From Candidatus Brocadiaceae bacterium S225 (lineage in GTDB: Bacteria > Planctomycetota > Brocadiia > Brocadiales > Scalinduaceae): a stretch of DNA of 64,000 nt. The notes under the pieces are model-generated. The model saw nothing but the letters and a program-made list of their open reading frames with translations. It did no database searches and was not told where the DNA came from. The position numbers and the translations under genes are program-made. How positions within the stretch are numbered: the stretch's first letter is position 1; each line of letters opens with the position of its first letter. The stretch is taken from the NCBI GenBank assembly GCA_007859995.1, contig SMSL01000004.1, positions 124,001 to 188,000 on the forward strand. Direction: 5' to 3'. Below are positions 17,772 to 27,343 of the stretch, piece by piece.

Positions 17772-18455
17772 TTATATTGTCATCTTAACACCATTCTGTT
17801 TTAACCAATTTTCGTATTCCTTATAATTCGGCATTTTTTTATCTAATTCATTCCAAAATTCCGGAGAATGATTGGGGTATTTCAAATGCACCATTTCATG
17901 TGAGATGATGTAGTCGATTACAGGGATGGGTGCCATTGCGCATTTCCAGTGAAAATTAAGCCCGTGCTTTGGTGTCCACGATGCCCAGCGGTTTTGCAAT
18001 TCCATTACCTTTATGGAAGCAGGCTTCTGTTGAAACTTTTCTTCAATCAGTTTCAGTCGTTCCGCAATCTTCTTCAATGCTTTTTCTTTATAGAACAGTT
18101 TAAATATCTTTTTCGCTTTATCAAGTTCATTCCTGTCAATTGTAAGATAGCCCCTGCTTAATTTTAAAGGCACTTCCTGTTTGTCAACAATTGAAAGCCG
18201 GTAGTTGCGACCAAAATATAGAAAGGACTGACCGTTTACAAATTGACGGTTTACCTTCCCCTGATTGAGCTCCTGCCATTTAGCCAGTTTTGTAAATATC
18301 TGGTATTGTTTTGACCTGACTACTTTCTCAACTGTTTCATCACTTGATGAAACAGGCGCCAATACGCGAACAGAGCCGTCCCTTTCGATAAAAATACTAG
18401 CCGTTTTTCTGCGGTCGGTCTTTTCAATTTTTATCTCTACCCCTTCTATATTCAT
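17772..18455 (-). CDS. YgjP-like zinc metallopeptidase (DUF45/SprT-like)
   Basis: A 227-residue protein with the zinc motif HEMVH (186-190) and a third histidine at 196 (YPNHSPEFW), plus the WASW and LNFHWKCAMAP blocks of the YgjP/DUF45 family. Members are predicted metal-dependent peptidases and are often encoded beside type I restriction genes. The start overlaps the hsdR stop by 4 bp (ATGA), so it is translationally coupled and is the last gene of the island operon. A role in restriction is not established; association by operon position is clear. Confidence 0.9.
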   Translation of the reverse strand: MNIEGVEIKIEKTDRRKTASIFIERDGSVRVLAPVSSSDETVEKVVRSKQYQIFTKLAKWQELNQGKVNRQFVNGQSFLYFGRNYRLSIVDKQEVPLKLSRGYLTIDRNELDKAKKIFKLFYKEKALKKIAERLKLIEEKFQQKPASIKVMELQNRWASWTPKHGLNFHWKCAMAPIPVIDYIISHEMVHLKYPNHSPEFWNELDKKMPNYKEYENWLKQNGVKMTI

Positions 18456-21400
18456 TTTAAATCTGCTTCTCTATTTTTGGCCAGCTTCATTAATTCGGTT
18501 GTTAATTCACCCGCATTTTCCGAGATGCCGGAGATTCCGGAATAACGCAGTTCATCTTCAACCAGTCCCTCAACTCTTTTTCTTTCTGCACCTTTATCAC
18601 TCCAGAAGTTCCTGATCTCCGCTGTTTCTTGAAGGATAGGTATCAGAATATGGATAAGTTCTTTTGTTTTGTCTATTTCTGCTTCATTTTCATCTGCAAT
18701 ACTATTTTTCAGCAAATCAAAAAACGGTGCCTCAACGAAGGAAATCCCTTCGGTTTCTTCTTGTCTGCCTTCTGCTATCTCTTCCCGCAACTTGCCCAAT
18801 TCACCAACAATGGTTTCCCAATTTTCTTTATAAGAGCTTAAAATTGATTCTAAACGGTCTTTGAAACGGCTGTAAAGTGCAGGGTCATTTTCAAGGTTTA
18901 CCTTAATGTGCCAGCGAATGGCATGTTCCATTTCCGATGCTTTTGATTTTGGCGTTTTATTCAGGTAATCAACCTTTTTACCGAATTCATCCGAAAGGAT
19001 GGAAACCTGTTGCACTTTTGTGTCAATACCTATAGACAGCAAATGCTTATCAATGAGTTTGCGCACTTTGTCAGAAGCCCATTTCAGATCCATTGTTTCA
19101 TCTTTGTAGCGGTCTTTGATGCGCCAGATAATATACCCCAGACGCTTTGCAGGTATCCAGTATTCGGTTCCAGCCTGAACATTAAAAAGTAAATCCAGAC
19201 TATCGAAGAAACTCTTTGAATAGGTGAGTAATTCTGCTCTGAACTTTACGTTTTTCGCTGTCTCAATACAATCTTCAGCAAACTCAAATTCTTCTGTTTC
19301 ATCGATAAATTTCTGTTTCAGGAAATCATCAATCTCGTTCAGTTTGTTGTCCGTGAACAAATCTATCAACCGTTTATATCTGGCTTCAAGTATTGGAATC
19401 TCTTTATCAATATCGCGGAAAACCTTCTGAAAATCTTCAAGTTGTAATTTGTCCTTATCCGTATAGATGTTCAGGGCATCACTCAAATGTTTTGTAACGC
19501 CGAAATAGTCTACAATCAAACCATACTTTTTGCCGTGCTTTGTTCTGTTCACGCGGGTAATGGCTTGAAACAGATCGTGCTCCCGTAAACACTTGTCCAG
19601 ATACATAACCTGCTCCACCGGGGCGTCAAAACCGGTAAGCAGGCGGTCGCACACGCATATAATGCCAATGCCTGTTTCGGGCTTTTCCGGATTAAAATCG
19701 GCTTTAAAGTTTTCAATGGCATTCATCTCTTTGGCCTCTCTGCGAGCCTTGCTGATGTATCCGGGTTCATTATTCCCAAGGCTTGATACAATGGCAGACA
19801 CTTTCAAAAATTCCAGTTGCTGTAACTGTTCCACGTCAATCTCTTCTTCCGGTAATTGTTTTAATTCGGCAATTTTATTTTGAATAGCAATTTCCAACTC
19901 ATATTTGTAACGCACTGCCGCCACGATACTGGAAGCCACCACCTGTGCTTTAAAACCATTTACCAGGATATCTTTGTAATAATGGTCGATAATATTCTTG
20001 CTAATGGCGGCGATGCGCTCTTTCGACTCCAGATAGGCAATGAATGAACCGTATCGGCGCTGAATTTCTTCTTTCTCTGCCTGGGTGCGCGGTTCAAACA
20101 TATCTTCAAACTCGGTGTCAAAGGCTTCTTTATCGTCTAACCTGTCTTTTGATATCTTGCCGATGTATTTAATTTCGACGGTTGTCCGGTCTTTTACCGC
20201 TTTGTCAAATTTATAAAAATCAATAAAACCGCCAAATCGTTCATGGGTTTTTATTTCGTGCCGCTCGGTGAGCAGGGGCGTTCCGGTAAAACCAATGCGG
20301 GTTGCATTGGGGAAAGCAGAAAACAGGTTATCACCCATGTCGCCGCCCTGTGTGCGGTGAGCTTCATCTATCAGCAATAAGATACGGTCGCTGTTGTTTA
20401 TGGTGTCAAACTTTTCAAAGGTTGGAACGACGCCTGCTTCAATCAGCGACTGTGCGGAAACATTTTTCTCATCCAGAAATTTATGGATCATTACCATATT
20501 TACATCGCCGGTATCATCGCTCAATTGATTAAGTTTATTGCGCCGGTTGATGATACGCACCGGTTCTCCTGTCATGGCAGCGGTTTCGGATAGTTGGTCT
20601 TCCAGATCCATGCGGTCAACAATAAAAATAATTTTTAAATCCTTTAAATCATCCAATGAACGCAGTTTGCGAATAAGAAAAACCATGGTCAGGCTTTTGC
20701 CGCTGCCCTGGGTATGCCAGACCACGCCGCCTTTCTCCAAAGGCGAGTTTCCTTGCCGGTAATTCTTGATGATTTTGCCGACTGCCCGGTATTGATTGTA
20801 GCGGGCGACTATTTTTACCTCCACCCCTTTTTTGATTTCAATAAACAGGGTGAAGTGCTTGAGCAGGTCAATCAGAATTTCTTTGTTCAGCATGCCGTGA
20901 ATCAAAACCTCCTGACGCTCTTCGTTGGGCGGATATTCTACCGTGCGGTACTCTTCGGGAAAAATGTCCACCCAGTTGTTGTAAAAGTCAAATTCAGCAC
21001 TGATGGTTCCTACCCTTGCTTCGGTGCCGTGAGTGATGATGCTGAACATATTGTAGTGGAACAGCCGTTCTTCACCCTCCTTAAAACCGTAATCATCATC
21101 GCGGGTGTTGGCGTAGCGGGTTACCTGCAGATACGCTTCGCTTAACGGTTCGGCCACATCAAAATCTTTGGCTTCCACCACGCAAACCGGCATGCCGTTC
21201 AGAAAGAGCACAATGTCGGGAATTATTCCCTGGCGGCTGGCGCCCGGTGTAATCAAACGAAACTGGTTGATGGCAATAAAAGAATTATTGTCATAGTTTT
21301 TAAAATCAACCAGACGAACTGTTGGGTCTTGTTCGCCGGTAAGTTCGTTTCTGGCAACCGATGTGCCTTTGAGCAGTATCCGGTGAATTTCCTTATTTGC

Positions 21401-21667
21401 CTCATGCAGGCTCTTTCCGGGGAAGTTCTCTATTTCAAACAGGATTTCATCCAGTTGTCTGTCGGTCAGCCATTCCCTGCCGTCCGGGGTGGTGTTTATT
21501 TTTTTGATGGCTTTCTTAAATTCTTCGGGCAAAACCACCTGTTTAAAGTTTTCGCGCAGGCTTTTTGCCGGTTCCTGAGGAATGCCAATGCCCTGGTTGA
21601 TTACCTGCCAGTCCAGCAGACGCAGTTTTTCCAGAAACGGTTTTTCTACATTTTTATATTCTGCCAT
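18452..21667 (-). CDS. hsdR: Type I restriction enzyme R subunit
   Basis: A 1071-residue motor and nuclease subunit. The N-terminal PD-(D/E)xK nuclease shows PDIVLFLNG (D151) and VVEAKD (E165, K167). The SF2 translocase has TQGSGKS (Walker A, near 319-325), DEAH (434-437), and later GFTGTPL and QAITRVNR motifs. With HsdM and HsdS it would form the complex that cuts DNA lacking the cognate methylation. It starts 3 bp after rhuM and overlaps the YgjP-like gene. No break or missing motif is visible, so the gene looks functional. Confidence 0.96.
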   Translation of the reverse strand: MAEYKNVEKPFLEKLRLLDWQVINQGIGIPQEPAKSLRENFKQVVLPEEFKKAIKKINTTPDGREWLTDRQLDEILFEIENFPGKSLHEANKEIHRILLKGTSVARNELTGEQDPTVRLVDFKNYDNNSFIAINQFRLITPGASRQGIIPDIVLFLNGMPVCVVEAKDFDVAEPLSEAYLQVTRYANTRDDDYGFKEGEERLFHYNMFSIITHGTEARVGTISAEFDFYNNWVDIFPEEYRTVEYPPNEERQEVLIHGMLNKEILIDLLKHFTLFIEIKKGVEVKIVARYNQYRAVGKIIKNYRQGNSPLEKGGVVWHTQGSGKSLTMVFLIRKLRSLDDLKDLKIIFIVDRMDLEDQLSETAAMTGEPVRIINRRNKLNQLSDDTGDVNMVMIHKFLDEKNVSAQSLIEAGVVPTFEKFDTINNSDRILLLIDEAHRTQGGDMGDNLFSAFPNATRIGFTGTPLLTERHEIKTHERFGGFIDFYKFDKAVKDRTTVEIKYIGKISKDRLDDKEAFDTEFEDMFEPRTQAEKEEIQRRYGSFIAYLESKERIAAISKNIIDHYYKDILVNGFKAQVVASSIVAAVRYKYELEIAIQNKIAELKQLPEEEIDVEQLQQLEFLKVSAIVSSLGNNEPGYISKARREAKEMNAIENFKADFNPEKPETGIGIICVCDRLLTGFDAPVEQVMYLDKCLREHDLFQAITRVNRTKHGKKYGLIVDYFGVTKHLSDALNIYTDKDKLQLEDFQKVFRDIDKEIPILEARYKRLIDLFTDNKLNEIDDFLKQKFIDETEEFEFAEDCIETAKNVKFRAELLTYSKSFFDSLDLLFNVQAGTEYWIPAKRLGYIIWRIKDRYKDETMDLKWASDKVRKLIDKHLLSIGIDTKVQQVSILSDEFGKKVDYLNKTPKSKASEMEHAIRWHIKVNLENDPALYSRFKDRLESILSSYKENWETIVGELGKLREEIAEGRQEETEGISFVEAPFFDLLKNSIADENEAEIDKTKELIHILIPILQETAEIRNFWSDKGAERKRVEGLVEDELRYSGISGISENAGELTTELMKLAKNREADLK

Positions 21668-21670
21668 AAT

Positions 21671-22744
21671 TTACTCTTTTTTCTTTTTGGCCTTTGTATG
21701 GTTGATTCTAGATTCGGAAAGTTTTTTTACCACTTTGTCAAAATCACTTTCAACAACTTTGTTTTGGGCGGTACGAAACTTTTCAAACTCTTTTTCTGCC
21801 AATGTTAAAGCAATCTGATGAGATACTTTGCCTTGATGTTTTAAAATTGCTTCTTCATTAAATTGCAGGAACGCGTCTAATTTCGTAATCCAATCATTCA
21901 TATACATAATCACGCCTTTACGCGCCTGGTTTTCTGCATAATCAAGATACATGGTTACAATGCGGTTTAAACCTTCCAATTCTTTTTCATTCAGATAATT
22001 TTTTGCTATGCCAATATCCGTTTTCCGTATCCTTCCTTTTGGCGCGTTTTTCCAGGTGGTTAAACCCATGTTTTCTTTTTCGCTGCCAACTCGTGCCGCA
22101 ATTATTTCTGCTGCTGTTTGACCGGTTATTGCCCAATGCAATTTGTTTTGAACGGTGGCAAAAAAATCTTTTGTAGTTTGTGAATCCAGTTTATAATCGG
22201 CGCTGCATTGTGTGTATATGTCGGTAATTTTTTGATAGAAACGGCGTTCACTGCTCCGTATGTCTCTGATGCGGGCAAGCTGCTCTTCAAAATAATCCTT
22301 ACCAAAAATGTTGTGCGGATTTTTCAACCGTTCATCATCCATTGTAAAACCTTTGATGATGTACTCTTTTAATCTTTCCGTAGCCCAAATTCGAAAGGCT
22401 GTTGCCTGTGTGCTGTTTACTCTGTAACCAACTGAAATAATTGCATCTAAATTGTAGTATTTAACTTTTGTAACCTGCGTTTTTCCTTTGATAGCGCCGT
22501 GTTGAGTGGTATGTTCCAAAACGGAACTCACCAGTTCTTCTTTCAATTCACCTGATTCAAAAATATTTTTAAGATGCTTGGTAACGGCCGGGCGCTGCAC
22601 GCCAAAAAGTTCTGCAATTTTTTGCTGGGTAAGCCAGATGGTTTCGTTTTGCAAATAAATTTCCACTTTAACATTGCCGTTGGGCGTTGTGTAGAGCAAT
22701 ATTTCATTGAAACCCTGCGGTGTTATATCTGGTTCTTTAGTCAT
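21671..22744 (-). CDS. RhuM family protein
   Basis: A 357-residue protein of the virulence RhuM family. A winged-helix-like N-terminus (IWLTQQKIAELFGVQRPAVTKHL) is followed by the family core (YYNLDAIISVGYRVNSTQAT and FRIWATERLKEYIIKGF). RhuM genes are commonly embedded in type I restriction operons; their biochemical role is not known. It lies between the RAYT gene (32 bp) and hsdR (3 bp) on the same strand, so it is part of the island operon. Full length, with no damage visible. Confidence 0.92.
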   Translation of the reverse strand: MTKEPDITPQGFNEILLYTTPNGNVKVEIYLQNETIWLTQQKIAELFGVQRPAVTKHLKNIFESGELKEELVSSVLEHTTQHGAIKGKTQVTKVKYYNLDAIISVGYRVNSTQATAFRIWATERLKEYIIKGFTMDDERLKNPHNIFGKDYFEEQLARIRDIRSSERRFYQKITDIYTQCSADYKLDSQTTKDFFATVQNKLHWAITGQTAAEIIAARVGSEKENMGLTTWKNAPKGRIRKTDIGIAKNYLNEKELEGLNRIVTMYLDYAENQARKGVIMYMNDWITKLDAFLQFNEEAILKHQGKVSHQIALTLAEKEFEKFRTAQNKVVESDFDKVVKKLSESRINHTKAKKKKE

Positions 22745-22776: not shown

Positions 22777-23337
22777 TTATTTCCTGTTTTCATCAATATC
22801 CCAATGTTGTGGATTGGTTACAATATAATTAACAATATTATTATATGATTTATCATTCCTGATGATGTGATCGTAAAAACGTGATTGCCAGCCAAATTCC
22901 AAATCATTATTTTTTGCATATTTGGTAATGCCGATTTTAAAACCACGGATAATTGACGCCAGATTTTTTGATTGTGGACCGAATTTATTTTTTGGTTTTG
23001 ATGGTGGTTGTTGTTGTAGAGACGCAAGATTTTGCGTCTCTACGTTATTGCGTCGATAATTGGTTTTATCAATTACAATTATTCCGTGAATATGATTGGG
23101 CATTACCACACACGCATCCAATATTACAAACGGAAAATGATTGGGGATTTCGGACCAATATTTTTCTGCCGCCATTCCCAATTGGGATAATTGCATTTCG
23201 TCATCGACAATATCGCCAAAATAATGTTCGCGGTTTTGGGTACAGATGGTGACAAAATACATAGCATCAGAACCATAATCCCAGTCTTTCAGTCGGGCTG
23301 ATTGGATACGATATCTGTTTTTATATCTTTCCGGCAT
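22777..23337 (-). CDS. REP-associated tyrosine transposase (RAYT, Y1 family)
   Basis: A 186-residue HUH single-strand transposase: MPNHIHGIIVID supplies H82 and H84, and Y155 in SRFYDHIIRN is the catalytic tyrosine. The conserved FGPQSKNLASIIRGFK block is present. A variable loop between them (about 97-112) is encoded by a 28-bp hairpin that matches hairpins in hsdS and hsdM. A 46-bp palindrome lies 27 bp before its start codon, as expected for a RAYT flanked by its own REP sequences. RAYTs cut and move such hairpins. It is inserted in the restriction operon between hsdS and rhuM and looks intact. Confidence 0.93.
   Translation of the reverse strand: MPERYKNRYRIQSARLKDWDYGSDAMYFVTICTQNREHYFGDIVDDEMQLSQLGMAAEKYWSEIPNHFPFVILDACVVMPNHIHGIIVIDKTNYRRNNVETQNLASLQQQPPSKPKNKFGPQSKNLASIIRGFKIGITKYAKNNDLEFGWQSRFYDHIIRNDKSYNNIVNYIVTNPQHWDIDENRK
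23016..23043. repeat. GAGACGC hairpin inside the RAYT gene
   Basis: A perfect 12-bp stem (GTAGAGACGCAA / TTGCGTCTCTAC) with a GATT loop, in frame within the transposase gene, encoding VETQNLAS. It matches hairpins at the end of hsdS and inside hsdM. Confidence 0.9.
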
Positions 23338-23352
23338 GGTATATATCTTATT

Positions 23353-24714
23353 TTATGATAATGGTGGAGACGGTAGAGACGCAAAATTTTGCGTCTCTAC
23401 CGTCTCCACATTCTTTTTCCCGCTCAACAAATCCGCCATTAAACCGGCTTTTATCTGCTGCAGTTTGTGCAGGTAGGTTTGTTCAGTTTGGATTTTGGTG
23501 TCAATTTGTTCAACATTGTTTGATATTTTATTTTGTTCTTTGTCAGAAATAATAGGTACAGGGATTTTACAAAAGTCTTTTGTTGTAAATGAAGCTTGAT
23601 TTACCGCTGGTTTTACAATTGCCTTAATCTCATTTTGCACAATATTTGAACTAAGTAAATAATAAAGAAATTTTGGTTTAACAATTTCCGATGCTTTTAT
23701 TCTAAAAAGGTTTGTAGTATAAATACATGGGCGAAAGTAACCTTCATAAATTGCAACTTTGCCAATTTGGTCTATGCTGTTTATAAAACAAAGCAGAATA
23801 TCTCCATTTTGAAGAACATAAGCACTGGTGTCAGCCCCCTGCGGGTCATTTTCATACCAATATCTAAGGCAAGAGAAGTCAATTTTATTCTCTTGAATGT
23901 TTCCTGAAATTAATACTGGTAATCCAATGTCTTGTTCTGAAAGCAACCTCGACAAACCACTTCTTAGTAGTCCAAAATAATTATCTAACCTCTCCACTTC
24001 CCACTCCTTCGGAATCCAGCCCAACTTGCTCTCTTTATACAATTCCGGAGCGTCTTCATATGTGGGGCGCAGTTTGCCCCGCCGTTCAGACGGGCAGGCA
24101 GTTGACACGTCAATGCCGCGGGTAAACAGATCGTGCAGCATCCCTTGCTTAATGGCTCTGTATTTGGCTATGGCGGCTTCTGTTTTTTCTATCACCGCGT
24201 CGGCAGTGGACAGAATGCGGGCGATTTTGCGTTGGGTTTCCTTTTGTTGCGGGTATGAAATTCCAATACTATTAATTGTTTTTACTGTTAATTGAGGTTG
24301 AGCACTACCAAAAGATATCCTTTCAATTTGTTCTTTAAGAAAAGAAGATTTCAGAAAATGATGGAGGTATTTATGGTCAATGTTATTATCCTGGTTTCTT
24401 AAAAGAACCATTCCTGAATTAATTCTAATGTGCTCGAAAGGTATCTTTTCATCATAAAAGGCAATATTGCCAACAGTTCCTCTTGTAGTTAAGACTATAT
24501 CAAGACGGTTGAGTTTACCAGTACCAAGTATTAAATCTCTTTCTTTAGAAATAAATTGACAGATATCGAACTTAAAACCATTATTTGTTACATTTTTTGC
24601 ATTTAGAAATAAGCAGAATCCTTTTTCTGAAAAATCTTTTTCTTTCGGATAATTAACACCTCTATCACCATCAATTACTTGAATATCTAAATCACTTAAT
24701 CGATTATTCTTCAT
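23353..24714 (-). CDS. hsdS: Type I restriction enzyme specificity subunit
   Basis: A 453-residue S subunit with two target-recognition domains. Each ends in a conserved helix: one with [20 protein letters not shown], the other with [18 protein letters not shown]. The central linker follows the family pattern ([12 protein letters not shown] ... [12 protein letters not shown] ... [13 protein letters not shown]) but carries about ten extra residues ([10 protein letters not shown]). The last 15-20 residues after LLSGKK are encoded by a 46-bp palindrome ([13 protein letters not shown]), not by normal hsdS sequence. It overlaps hsdM by 11 bp. It recognises the DNA target for both methylation and cleavage; the site cannot be read from sequence. 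Confidence 0.94.
23364..23409. repeat. 46-bp perfect palindrome ending hsdS
   Basis: Perfectly symmetric about 23386/23387: GTGGAGACGGTAGAGACGC followed by AAAA, then the reverse complement. The inner 30 bp is the same hairpin family as in the RAYT and hsdM genes. It codes the HsdS C-terminal tail and lies just upstream of the RAYT start. Confidence 0.93.
24079..24105. repeat. GC-rich insert in the hsdS linker
   Basis: A 27-bp segment rich in CCGCCG and GGGCAGGC words adds about nine residues to the HsdS central linker relative to the usual family pattern. It resembles the GC-rich hairpins at 15641 and 27499. The insertion is inferred from memory of the family linker. Confidence 0.35.
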
Positions 24715-27343
24715 AACCCAACTCCATTAAAAAACTGTTCAGCAATTGGGTTTCTTTGTTTCTTTCGCTCAAAATGCTGTTCAGGGTGGTGGTGTATTTC
24801 TCCCACAGGTTTTCAATGTTTTGAAGAAGGTGGCGACTGTGGGCCTGCAGGTAGCCGTTAATGGTCTGGTGCAGGGTGCGGTTCCAGCGGCTTAGTATCA
24901 GTTCTTTGGCTTCTTCTGGTGTTATCTTTAAGCGGGCTTCGTCCACCAGTTGCTGCTTGCGGTCTTTAATCTGCTTAATCACCTTTTTGCACTCCTTCAG
25001 TTCGCTTTCCAGCTCCGTGTGTCTGGCAAAGCGCTGTTCATCGGCGTCAATCTGTTCCTGCAACCGTTGAGACGCAAGATTTTGCGTCTTTACATTAGCG
25101 ACGCATTGCAGAGCCTCGCTACCGGTTTCCATATCTGCTTTTTTATAGGCGGCAATGCGTTTGTTCAGGTTTTTTACTTCTTTGACTACCTCCCGGTGTT
25201 CGCCTTTCAGCGCTTTCAGGGCGTCTTTATGCTCTTTCAGTTCGGTTTTGGGCCAGACGTCGTACTCTTCTTCGCTCCAGACACCTTCTTCCAGTTCGTT
25301 CACTTCGGCAAACAGGGCTTCCAGTTCTTCTTTGCGGCTCTGGTTTTCGCTCAGTTCTTTCAGCACTTCGGGAAACTGGCTTTGCAGAATTTCATCGTCG
25401 GGGATCAGTTCGGCATTCCAGCCGCTGGCAGCCACGCTCTTTAAATCGGTTTTCAGTTCATCCCAATATGCGGCTAAGGCGCCACGGCCCTGGTATTGGT
25501 CTAAAACCGCCCCGTTGTTGTTCTCGCCAAAAGGGAGCATATTCAGTGCAACGCTGAAACTATCCGAGAATCTGCCGTATAGTTCAAATACATTATTGGT
25601 TTCGGGCAGTTTTTCAAAATCGCTCACCACCTCATTCCACCATTTCTGCAGGCCTTTGCTGTAGTTTTCAAAGGTGGTGTTTACTTCCGGGCTTTCATCC
25701 AGCAATTTTTTAATCTCTTCTTTCTGGGTAACGGCGCCGGTAAACTTCAGGTAGTTTTTCTTCAGTTCAGTAAACAGTTTTTCCCGCAATCCGGGGTAGG
25801 AAGCAAAGGCAGGATTCAAGGCGTTCACTTCGCTTTCCGGGATACCTCCCTGCAGGTGAGCGTGCACATCGTGCGGTTCGGCGGGAGGGGCATTGTCCAC
25901 AAAACGGCGGATATTCAGGTTGTATTCTTCGTCCGCCAACTCGGCTTTGCTGACCAGTCGGCTGTATTTATAAATCTCTTTCTTGTGTTTGCAGGAATAA
26001 CTGATTTTCTCAATATCTTCAGGGCGCAGTCTGTTCTGGTTTTTGCCTTCTCTGTATTCGCGGTCGGCATTGATGAATAACACATGCTCGCGCAGGTGGG
26101 CGTCTTTTTTATTCACCACAATTACAGAAGCCGGAATACCGGTTCCGTAAAACAGACCCGGCGGCAAACCAATGACCGCTTCCAGGTAGCCTTTACCAGT
26201 GAGCCATTTTCTGAAATTGCGCTCTTCACCGCCACGGAACAGAACGCCGTGAGGCATCACCACCGCCATACGCCCGGCATTGTTTGTAGATGCCACCATG
26301 TGCTGCACAAACATAAAATCGGCCTTGCCCTTTACCGGCATCCAGTAATTGAAGCGTTCTTTGAACTTCATACCGTCTTTGCTGTAGTTTTGTGAAAATG
26401 GCGGATTGGCAATTACAATGTCAAAAGTTTTGAGTTCTCCCTGTTGTATGTGCAGGGGATTCATCAGGGTGTCGCCGTTTACAATATTGCTGTCAAAAAT
26501 ATTGTGAAACAGCATATTCATCTTGCTCAAACTCCACACAGTTCCGCTCTTTTCCTGTCCGTAAAGCGAGATGTTTCTTGCAGAACCGTAGCGGCTTTCC
26601 ACATAGTTTTTGCTTTCGATGAGCATACCGCCGCTGCCCACGGTGGGGTCATAAATTTCGGCATCTTCCTCCGGTTCCAGGATATTAACCAGCAATCGAA
26701 CGACTTCATTGGGTGTATAAAATTCACCGGCCTTTTTACCGGCGCTGTCGGCAAAATATTTTATCAGGTATTCATAGGCAGCCCCCATCAGGTCGGGGAA
26801 TTCCAGATTGTCATCCGTCAGGTTCTTTTTGTTAAATTCACGAATCAGTTCCCGTAAATCTTCATCGGTAATCTGTTTGTTGTTTTTGCCAATGCTGCGG
26901 TTAAAGTTGATCGATTTTAAAACACCTTCGAGTTTGTCAAGGTTGGCGTCTTCCAGAGCGGCAAGGGCTATATTCAGATGGTCGCCAATCTCTTCCTGCA
27001 GGTCCTTGATGTAGTTTATTGGCTTCCCCTCTTCGTCAACTTCCGGGTCGCCTTCAAACTTTTTCCAACGGGCAGTTAATGGTACAAAGAAATCATACTC
27101 CGGTGCGTTTTGCCTTTCCAGTTCACCATAAATTACTTCAGGTTCTTTAATATGCCGTTTCTCGACAAGGTTTCTTTCTCTCGTTTCACGGTGAATCTCA
27201 AACTGGTCGTTCACCCTTTTGAGAAACAACATCGCAATGATGTATTCTTTGTATTCAGAAGCATCCATGTTGCCGCGAAGGCTTTCGCAGGCTTCTTCAA
27301 GAAAGGTTTCTAAACGGGCAAGTGATAATTTTCGTATAGCCAT
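24704..27343 (-). CDS. hsdM: Type I restriction enzyme M subunit (N6-adenine methyltransferase)
   Basis: An 879-residue methyltransferase. Residues 1-140 form the helical HsdM N-terminus. The catalytic domain has the AdoMet motif DPTVGSGG (232-239) and NPPF (313-316). Residues beyond about 500 form a long charged, mostly helical and coiled-coil extension, so the protein is about 350 residues longer than a typical HsdM. Within it, residues in VKTQNLAS are encoded by a copy of the GAGACGC hairpin. It is the first gene of the island operon and overlaps hsdS. It methylates adenine in the target set by HsdS. Confidence 0.96.
25066..25093. repeat. GAGACGC hairpin inside hsdM
   Basis: Same hairpin family as at 23016, with one mismatch and one wobble pair in the 12-bp stem. 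It is in frame in the coiled-coil extension. The slight decay suggests it is older than the other two copies. Confidence 0.85.

Follow-up and report, generated by a model that had tools for sequence, protein, structure and literature searches.

Transposases of TnpA-REP subclass 2.4 have been described as carrying repetitive extragenic palindromic (REP) sequences in frame inside their own gene, between the HuH and Y motifs (PMC6006769). In the GTAG REP superfamily, the TAG of the foot supplies stop codons, and slightly more than 10% of the elements lie at the ends of coding regions (PMC3733652); how REPs spread is poorly understood (PMC8266576). The core idea of in-frame REPs in the genes of REP-associated tyrosine transposases (RAYTs) and in unrelated open reading frames (ORFs) is not new. 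Here we describe a RAYT gene within a type I restriction-modification operon of Candidatus Brocadiaceae bacterium S225, located in a 64,000-nucleotide stretch of DNA (contig SMSL01000004.1, positions 124,001 to 188,000; hereafter the window), in which all the REP copies found lie inside the RAYT gene and two hsd genes next to it.

The genes of the operon follow one another on the minus strand in the order hsdM-hsdS-RAYT-rhuM-hsdR, the hsd genes being recognized by their Pfam matches. The features, in window positions, are as follows.

24704..27343, minus strand: hsdM, methyltransferase subunit of 879 amino acids (Pfam N6_Mtase, E 5.8e-100; HsdM_N, E 5.7e-22)
25096..25121, minus strand: second, imperfect hairpin adjoining the hsdM REP
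25066..25093, minus strand: REP in hsdM, coding for VKTQNLASQ, with feet decayed to GTAA/CAAC
23353..24714, minus strand: hsdS, specificity subunit of 453 amino acids (Pfam Methylase_S, E 2.4e-26)
23364..23409, no strand assigned: perfect 46-bp palindrome at the 3' end of hsdS, enclosing the REP at 23373-23400
22777..23337, minus strand: RAYT (TnpA-REP) gene, 186 amino acids (NCBIfam NF047646; motifs MPNHIHG, WQ and YIxxNP)
23016..23043, minus strand: REP in the RAYT linker, with a GTAG...CTAC double foot and a 12-bp stem, coding for VETQNLASLQ (residues 99-108)
21671..22744, minus strand: RhuM-family gene between RAYT and hsdR (Pfam Virulence_RhuM, E 5.6e-109)
18452..21667, minus strand: hsdR, restriction subunit of 1071 amino acids (Pfam HSDR_N, E 9.4e-37; SWI2_SNF2, E 5.9e-67)

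An earlier reading made from the letters of the window (the sequence-only reading) had placed one and the same hairpin in the RAYT gene, at the end of hsdS and in hsdM, and the three 28-bp hairpins were indeed found at 23016-23043, 23373-23400 and 25066-25093. All of them lie in the reading frame of their host gene, and translation confirmed that they code for similar peptides. The hsdM copy equals the RAYT copy at 26 of 28 bases; its feet are lost and a second hairpin adjoins it, so that it is not the intact hairpin it had been taken for, whereas the GTAG/CTAC feet are intact in the RAYT and hsdS copies. The DNA fold z-scores of the three hairpins were -8.0, -13.1 and -3.0. The three are the same element, a GTAG-type REP.

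Beyond these hairpins, no exact GAGACGCAA occurred in the 64-kb window. With up to one mismatch, 15 window matches were obtained compared with 10.4 expected from shuffles, and therefore the lone 9-mer is unremarkable and the paired arms are the unusual part. A scan of the whole assembly (2.96 Mb in 28 contigs, 79% complete) with the pattern AGAGACGCAANNTTTTGCGTCTCT, allowing up to three mismatches, yielded only three sites, all within 2.1 kb. The claim that the hairpin was found nowhere else in 64 kb was therefore borne out and extends to the assembly, where the RAYT next door carries the REP and all the found copies surround it.

The hsdS palindrome starts at about residue 436 and supplies the last ∼18 residues of HsdS, while the HsdS relative of genome G306 ends in ...LLSGRVKVSESQMEGIKG (genomes are designated G and loci L). 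Only 26 bp separate the palindrome from the start codon of the RAYT gene, and as a RAYT would be expected to have its upstream flanking REP at this position, the palindrome is probably that element. As to the second hairpin of hsdM, 5 of the 26 bases of its plain sequence depart from the Brocadiales palindrome TAGAGACGCATTGCAATGCGTCTCTA. When 62 genomes were searched with a degenerate pattern at two mismatches, palindromes of this sort turned up in 17 members of the order besides the window genome; at up to three mismatches, the hairpin itself was found only in the window among the loci then compared. The similarity suggests that the two are related, which is likely but not certain. Given that this imperfect hairpin adjoins the hsdM REP, the insert in hsdM may represent a REP pair that has decayed.

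The window RAYT matched NCBIfam NF047646 with 60.4 bits (E 1.7e-16), below the 80-bit cut-off of the model, and the solved TnpA-REP chain of PDB entry 4er8 (E 3.3e-4); no Pfam family was matched at E 0.001. Its motifs MPNHIHG, GWQSRF and NYIVTNP fit those tabulated for subclass 2.4 (NH[IFV]H, WQ and YIxNNP) in PMC6006769, the last with one mismatch. Two further traits of that subclass are present: the in-frame REP between HuH and Y, and a long canonical, double-foot REP, GTAGAGACGCAAAATCTTGCGTCTCTAC, with a 12-bp stem. The protein can thus be placed in TnpA-REP subclass 2.4 (RAYT group 4) as a fit and not as a proof, NF047646 being a general RAYT model and not a model of the subclass. AlphaFold was run on five sequences; the model of the window RAYT had a mean pLDDT (predicted local distance difference test) score of 73.7, with residues 1-21 and 94-123 below 50, and the REP peptide falls within the second of these low-confidence stretches, a loop.

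An internal palindrome proved to be a common property of such genes. The Brocadiales set comprised 80 genome regions plus the window, most of them taken from the fuller RAYT matches and three for HsdM, and contained 82 RAYT ORFs, of which 76 were kept (at least 120 amino acids and an HUH motif) and six dropped. Perfect palindromes with arms of at least 9 bp were present in 61 of the 76, compared to 27 of 458 other ORFs of 150-300 amino acids; with arms of at least 12 bp the figures were 40 of 76 and 6 of 458, respectively. In 58 of the 76, the palindrome (arms of at least 9 bp) lay 8-45 residues past the HUH motif, and these 58 palindromes represent 42 different strings, some being trimmed forms of one another. 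Outside Brocadiales, such a palindrome was found within 60 residues in 11 of 17 HUH-bearing RAYT ORFs from 20 regions, the genomes having been picked because they hold the window REP type. At two loci, L037 and L122, the RAYT linker is lengthened by the REP peptide repeated in tandem (VETQNRDVETQNRDVETQNIAS and similar).

RAYTs sharing a REP type at less than 80% protein identity were compared pairwise (87 pairs; 12 REP types, one of them without a pair). Where both codons specified the same amino acid, the third base was identical at 292 of 314 positions (93%) in the right arm of the hairpin, compared to 4310 of 7738 (56%) in the rest of the gene; for one REP type, GACACGG, the agreement was just 5 of 10. 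The right arm alone was scored because the REP families had been picked by a core in the left arm, and since palindromy couples both arms, some circularity is left in this figure. The difference in synonymous identity indicates that the internal RAYT hairpin is renewed by turnover or constrained at the DNA level.

The arrangement of the window recurs in genome G369 (Candidatus Thiobius, Gammaproteobacteria; contig L091). Exactly four hairpins were found in that genome at two mismatches, all within 3.9 kb of one contig, in hsdM, the hsdS tail, the RAYT gene and hsdR. The hsdS tail codes for VETQNLASLQ and the RAYT for VETQNIASPQ, while the HsdM and HsdR copies are read in the other open frame. 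That all found copies are confined to a single hsd operon in each of two unrelated genomes may be new. For two other REP types, 62 genomes were searched by pattern at one mismatch and the hits compared with RAYT places: a lone copy lay inside a RAYT place in G303, G153, G308 and G319, and both copies of G304 lay inside RAYT places.

The linkage between RAYT and restriction genes extends beyond these cases. An hsd gene lay directly beside the RAYT (within 400 bp) for 17 of 96 RAYT ORFs, always on the same strand and in many cases with touching or overlapping gene ends (12 of the 76 from Brocadiales, window included, and 5 of the 20 from elsewhere). These counts rest on direct neighbors identified by phmmer from seeds and by Pfam scans, in a sample biased by the choice of RAYTs for their likeness to that of the window, itself within an hsd operon; in addition, the RAYTs from outside Brocadiales belong to genomes picked for holding this REP. 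Among 150 ORFs neighboring RAYTs (window excluded), HSDR_N was the commonest Pfam family (11), with Methylase_S reaching 7 and N6_Mtase 4; in 150 control ORFs taken from the same loci at a distance of over 3 kb, none of the three was among the 25 commonest families, the lowest count of which was two. Similarly, in loci of the same size an hsd gene was nearby for 8 of 30 RAYTs (window included) compared with 0 of 30 DDE transposases (Fisher p 0.005). Finally, when the 65 top-scoring HSDR_N places of 62 genomes (E at most 3.6e-27) were inspected, 7 had a RAYT place no more than 41 bp upstream on the same strand, compared with ∼0.035 expected by a rough estimate from ∼110 RAYTs among ∼200,000 genes, neither of them exactly counted. 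The RAYT-hsd cases of G153, G304 (twice), G308 and, close by, G303 look like one related cassette.

No paper on such a linkage was found by title or abstract start in the literature searched, nor were the words 'restriction', 'defense' and 'hsd' found in the main text of PMC6006769. The recurrent presence of group-4 RAYTs within type I operons may be new. The restriction operon is not the only one in which these genes reside: 10 of the 150 neighbors were glycine-cleavage P-protein genes, and six loci shared a close homologue, which makes the operon-dwelling habit wider than restriction. At those six (L195, L197, L198, L199, L237 and L239), where three different internal REPs were present, the RAYT probably lies between two P-protein subunit genes. 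A broader proposal is that type I operons regularly include a group-4 RAYT as an accessory gene, situated between hsdS and hsdR or between hsdM and hsdS with gene ends that touch or overlap, the internal REP serving as a master copy that is re-seeded into the operon genes, so that HsdM, HsdS and HsdR would gain loops and tails faster and RAYT and restriction system would be inherited together; we regard this as distinctly unlikely.

The comparison of HsdM homologues that the sequence-only reading had proposed was carried out, and relatives exist both with and without the REP. The operon of G306 is an orthologue from another family, its HsdR being 77% identical to that of the window and its HsdM 83% in the first half and 64% in the second; no RAYT match was found in its 16 kb and no REP in its hsdM, and the window linker is 3 residues shorter than its counterpart there. 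The hsdM of G306 is split into two separate ORFs by an interrupting gene (L185:7167-8024), which we take to be a transposase. A second, distant HsdM family carries REPs of the VETHGRASLQ type in L266, L269, L270, L211 and L219, that of L266 being a perfect 30-bp palindrome. In the full-length proteins, this REP lies ∼125-133 residues from the C terminus, and the window REP is similarly placed, at residue 751 of 879. The relatives L135 and L151 have no REP, and in comparison with L151, ∼18 bp are replaced by ∼30 bp in the REP-bearing genes of L266 and L269. A clean 28-bp insertion into hsdM was considered and rejected, both for this replacement and for the shorter window linker. The alignments suggest instead that the REPs of hsdM take the place of segments of a variable linker in the C-terminal part. 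In hsdS, the REP forms a tail and not an internal linker. The case named by the sequence-only reading as refuting it, the same peptide without any hairpin in the DNA, did not turn up at the loci inspected; closest to it is the slightly decayed hairpin of L269 and L270.

In our view, it is fairly likely that the RAYT lodged in the hsd operon seeded REPs locally and that selection kept the in-frame copies in tolerant loops and tails. We infer that the window RAYT mobilized the REP. Under this scheme, a group-4 RAYT gene would have become lodged in a type I restriction operon, and its product would have cleaved and copied REP single strands near its own gene. The hsdS copy would have arrived as the REP that flanks the RAYT upstream, and the hsdM copy, perhaps as a REP pair, would have taken the place of part of the C-terminal helical linker. 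Selection would have removed any copy that shifted the frame or created a stop, and those in frame would remain in linkers and tails. Local seeding agrees with L211 and L219, where a RAYT in the same operon carries the same VETHGRASLQ-type REP as the HsdM.

A number of observations weigh against local seeding. The assembly is incomplete, and further REP copies are therefore possible; also, no downstream flanking REP was seen beside the window RAYT. Elsewhere the confinement fails: G371 contains 12 REP copies, two at the RAYT and the others away from it, G342 contains four, two in the RAYT ORF and the others away, and in all the genomes searched for the two other REP types, 9 of 30 and 3 of 46 places, respectively, were inside a RAYT place. 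Nor do RAYT and hsdM always share the REP, since in L266, L269 and L270 it is present in hsdM although the fetched region contains no RAYT ORF, and L210, L213, L223 and L227 combine a REP-bearing RAYT with a REP-free hsdM. Moreover, the hsdM linker and the hsdR loop hold other in-frame repeats, so that insertion there does not need a RAYT. Nothing matching the window RAYT was found in G258 (65 forward REP matches) or G106 (13), which implies that REPs can persist or arrive without a close RAYT. Elsewhere than in the window assembly, REP number is therefore not tied to a close RAYT, and the rule that REP number follows RAYT presence was rejected on account of these two genomes.

The explanation that competes best with local seeding, although its chances are somewhat less than even, is the transfer of the whole hsd-RAYT island from a REP-rich donor with the three REPs already in place, the local RAYT having played no part here. 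Three local copies would likewise be expected from such a transfer, a further point against local seeding. It is also consistent with the wide distribution of the exact 28-mer, which was found in at least 117 genome-contig stretches of many phyla (with Bacteroidales common among the matches listed). At up to one mismatch, the hairpin was present in 12 of 294 genomes of the phylum, all of the same order and including that of the window, the richer strand carrying between 1 and 65 matches. The failure to find a further copy in its own assembly and the orthologous operon of G306, which lacks both RAYT and REP, point in the same direction. However, transfer leaves unexplained why the four copies found in Ca. 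Thiobius also all surround a RAYT in an hsd operon, and it merely shifts local seeding to the donor.

It appears rather unlikely that the hsd genes are simply tolerant sinks, the REPs being ordinary dispersed repeats and the HsdM and HsdR loops accepting any short open repeat. Some of the data do fit: an ELTMDNxxWTIED repeat occupies the REP place of HsdM in L210, L223 and L227, SQEGNIS-type in-frame repeats occur in the same loops of Brocadiales relatives (HsdM of L204 and HsdR of L220), and the three HsdM genes with a REP and no RAYT ORF in their fetched regions are readily accommodated. In addition, in-frame GTAG and CGTC REPs are described in many unrelated genes (PMC3733652). Tolerance alone, however, explains neither the confinement of all found copies to the RAYT operon in two genomes nor why RAYT and neighboring hsdM carry matching REPs in L211 and L219.

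The sequence-only reading had also held that the hairpin is tolerated because it is open in the host frame. It is open there, but it is open in two of its three frames, VETQNxASL and RDAKxCVS, and both are used, the second by hsdM and hsdR of G369; a unique open frame was accordingly rejected. Frame use was counted among 132 distinct hairpins from the 28-mer loci (among the matches listed), in non-RAYT ORFs and at least 15 codons from their ends. The VETQ and RDAK frames were used 15 and 4 times, respectively, in ORFs of at least 250 amino acids (p 0.019), 20 and 6 times at 120 or more (p 0.009) and 12 and 4 times at 300 or more (p 0.077). For its part, the majority of the hairpins (94 of 142 in the loci then compared, window excluded) lay in no ORF of at least 120 amino acids. 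That VETQNxASL is a selected linker with the hairpin as a by-product is highly improbable, since the frame bias in its favor is set against nearly frozen third bases in the hairpin, the many different hairpins and two frames that serve the same RAYT loop, and the low model confidence of that loop.

Taken together, the sequence-only reading is partly supported: it was right in kind, and its core had already been published. To judge by the sequences compared, there is no sign here that the REP peptides benefit the restriction enzymes.

Some observations concern the surrounding genes. A RhuM-family gene adjoins the RAYT gene at three loci (window 21671-22744, L204:9549-10046 and L229:7953-9005). 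A small gene (17772-18455) follows immediately after the window hsdR, and the post-hsdR gene of L185 has a similar start, while in L223 a YgjP-like metallopeptidase gene follows hsdR.

A genome with only three or four found copies around one RAYT, placed in the neighboring genes, offers a small and readable case of apparent local REP spread, and hsd operons with and without a RAYT provide a natural comparison. If the linkage between RAYT and restriction genes is true, it would tie a domesticated single-strand nuclease to a defense system and would give a testable origin for loop variation among restriction enzymes.

Among the known systems, palindromes settled in frame within protein genes are shared with the Rickettsia palindromic elements, reportedly the work of Ogata, Claverie and colleagues. 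Those elements are CGTC-tagged, and CGTC repeats are described without transposase association, whereas the window REP is GTAG-tagged and accompanied by a RAYT (PMC3733652). With the GTAG REP superfamily, the window REP shares the GTAG foot, the short palindrome and copies lying fully inside ORFs; however, that superfamily is mostly intergenic and often abundant, with many copies per genome, whereas the three copies found in this assembly are all coding and lie around one RAYT (PMC3733652). The hsdM insert, as a possible REP pair, resembles REPINs and BIMEs (bacterial interspersed mosaic elements), but its two hairpins are unlike in sequence and 2 bp apart, and that the second is a REP is likely but not sure (PMC3116915, PMC2817692). 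With TnpA-REP subclass 2.4, the window RAYT shares the in-frame REP in its own gene (PMC6006769); what the present locus adds is the presence of REPs in hsd genes around the RAYT and the linkage to the operon.

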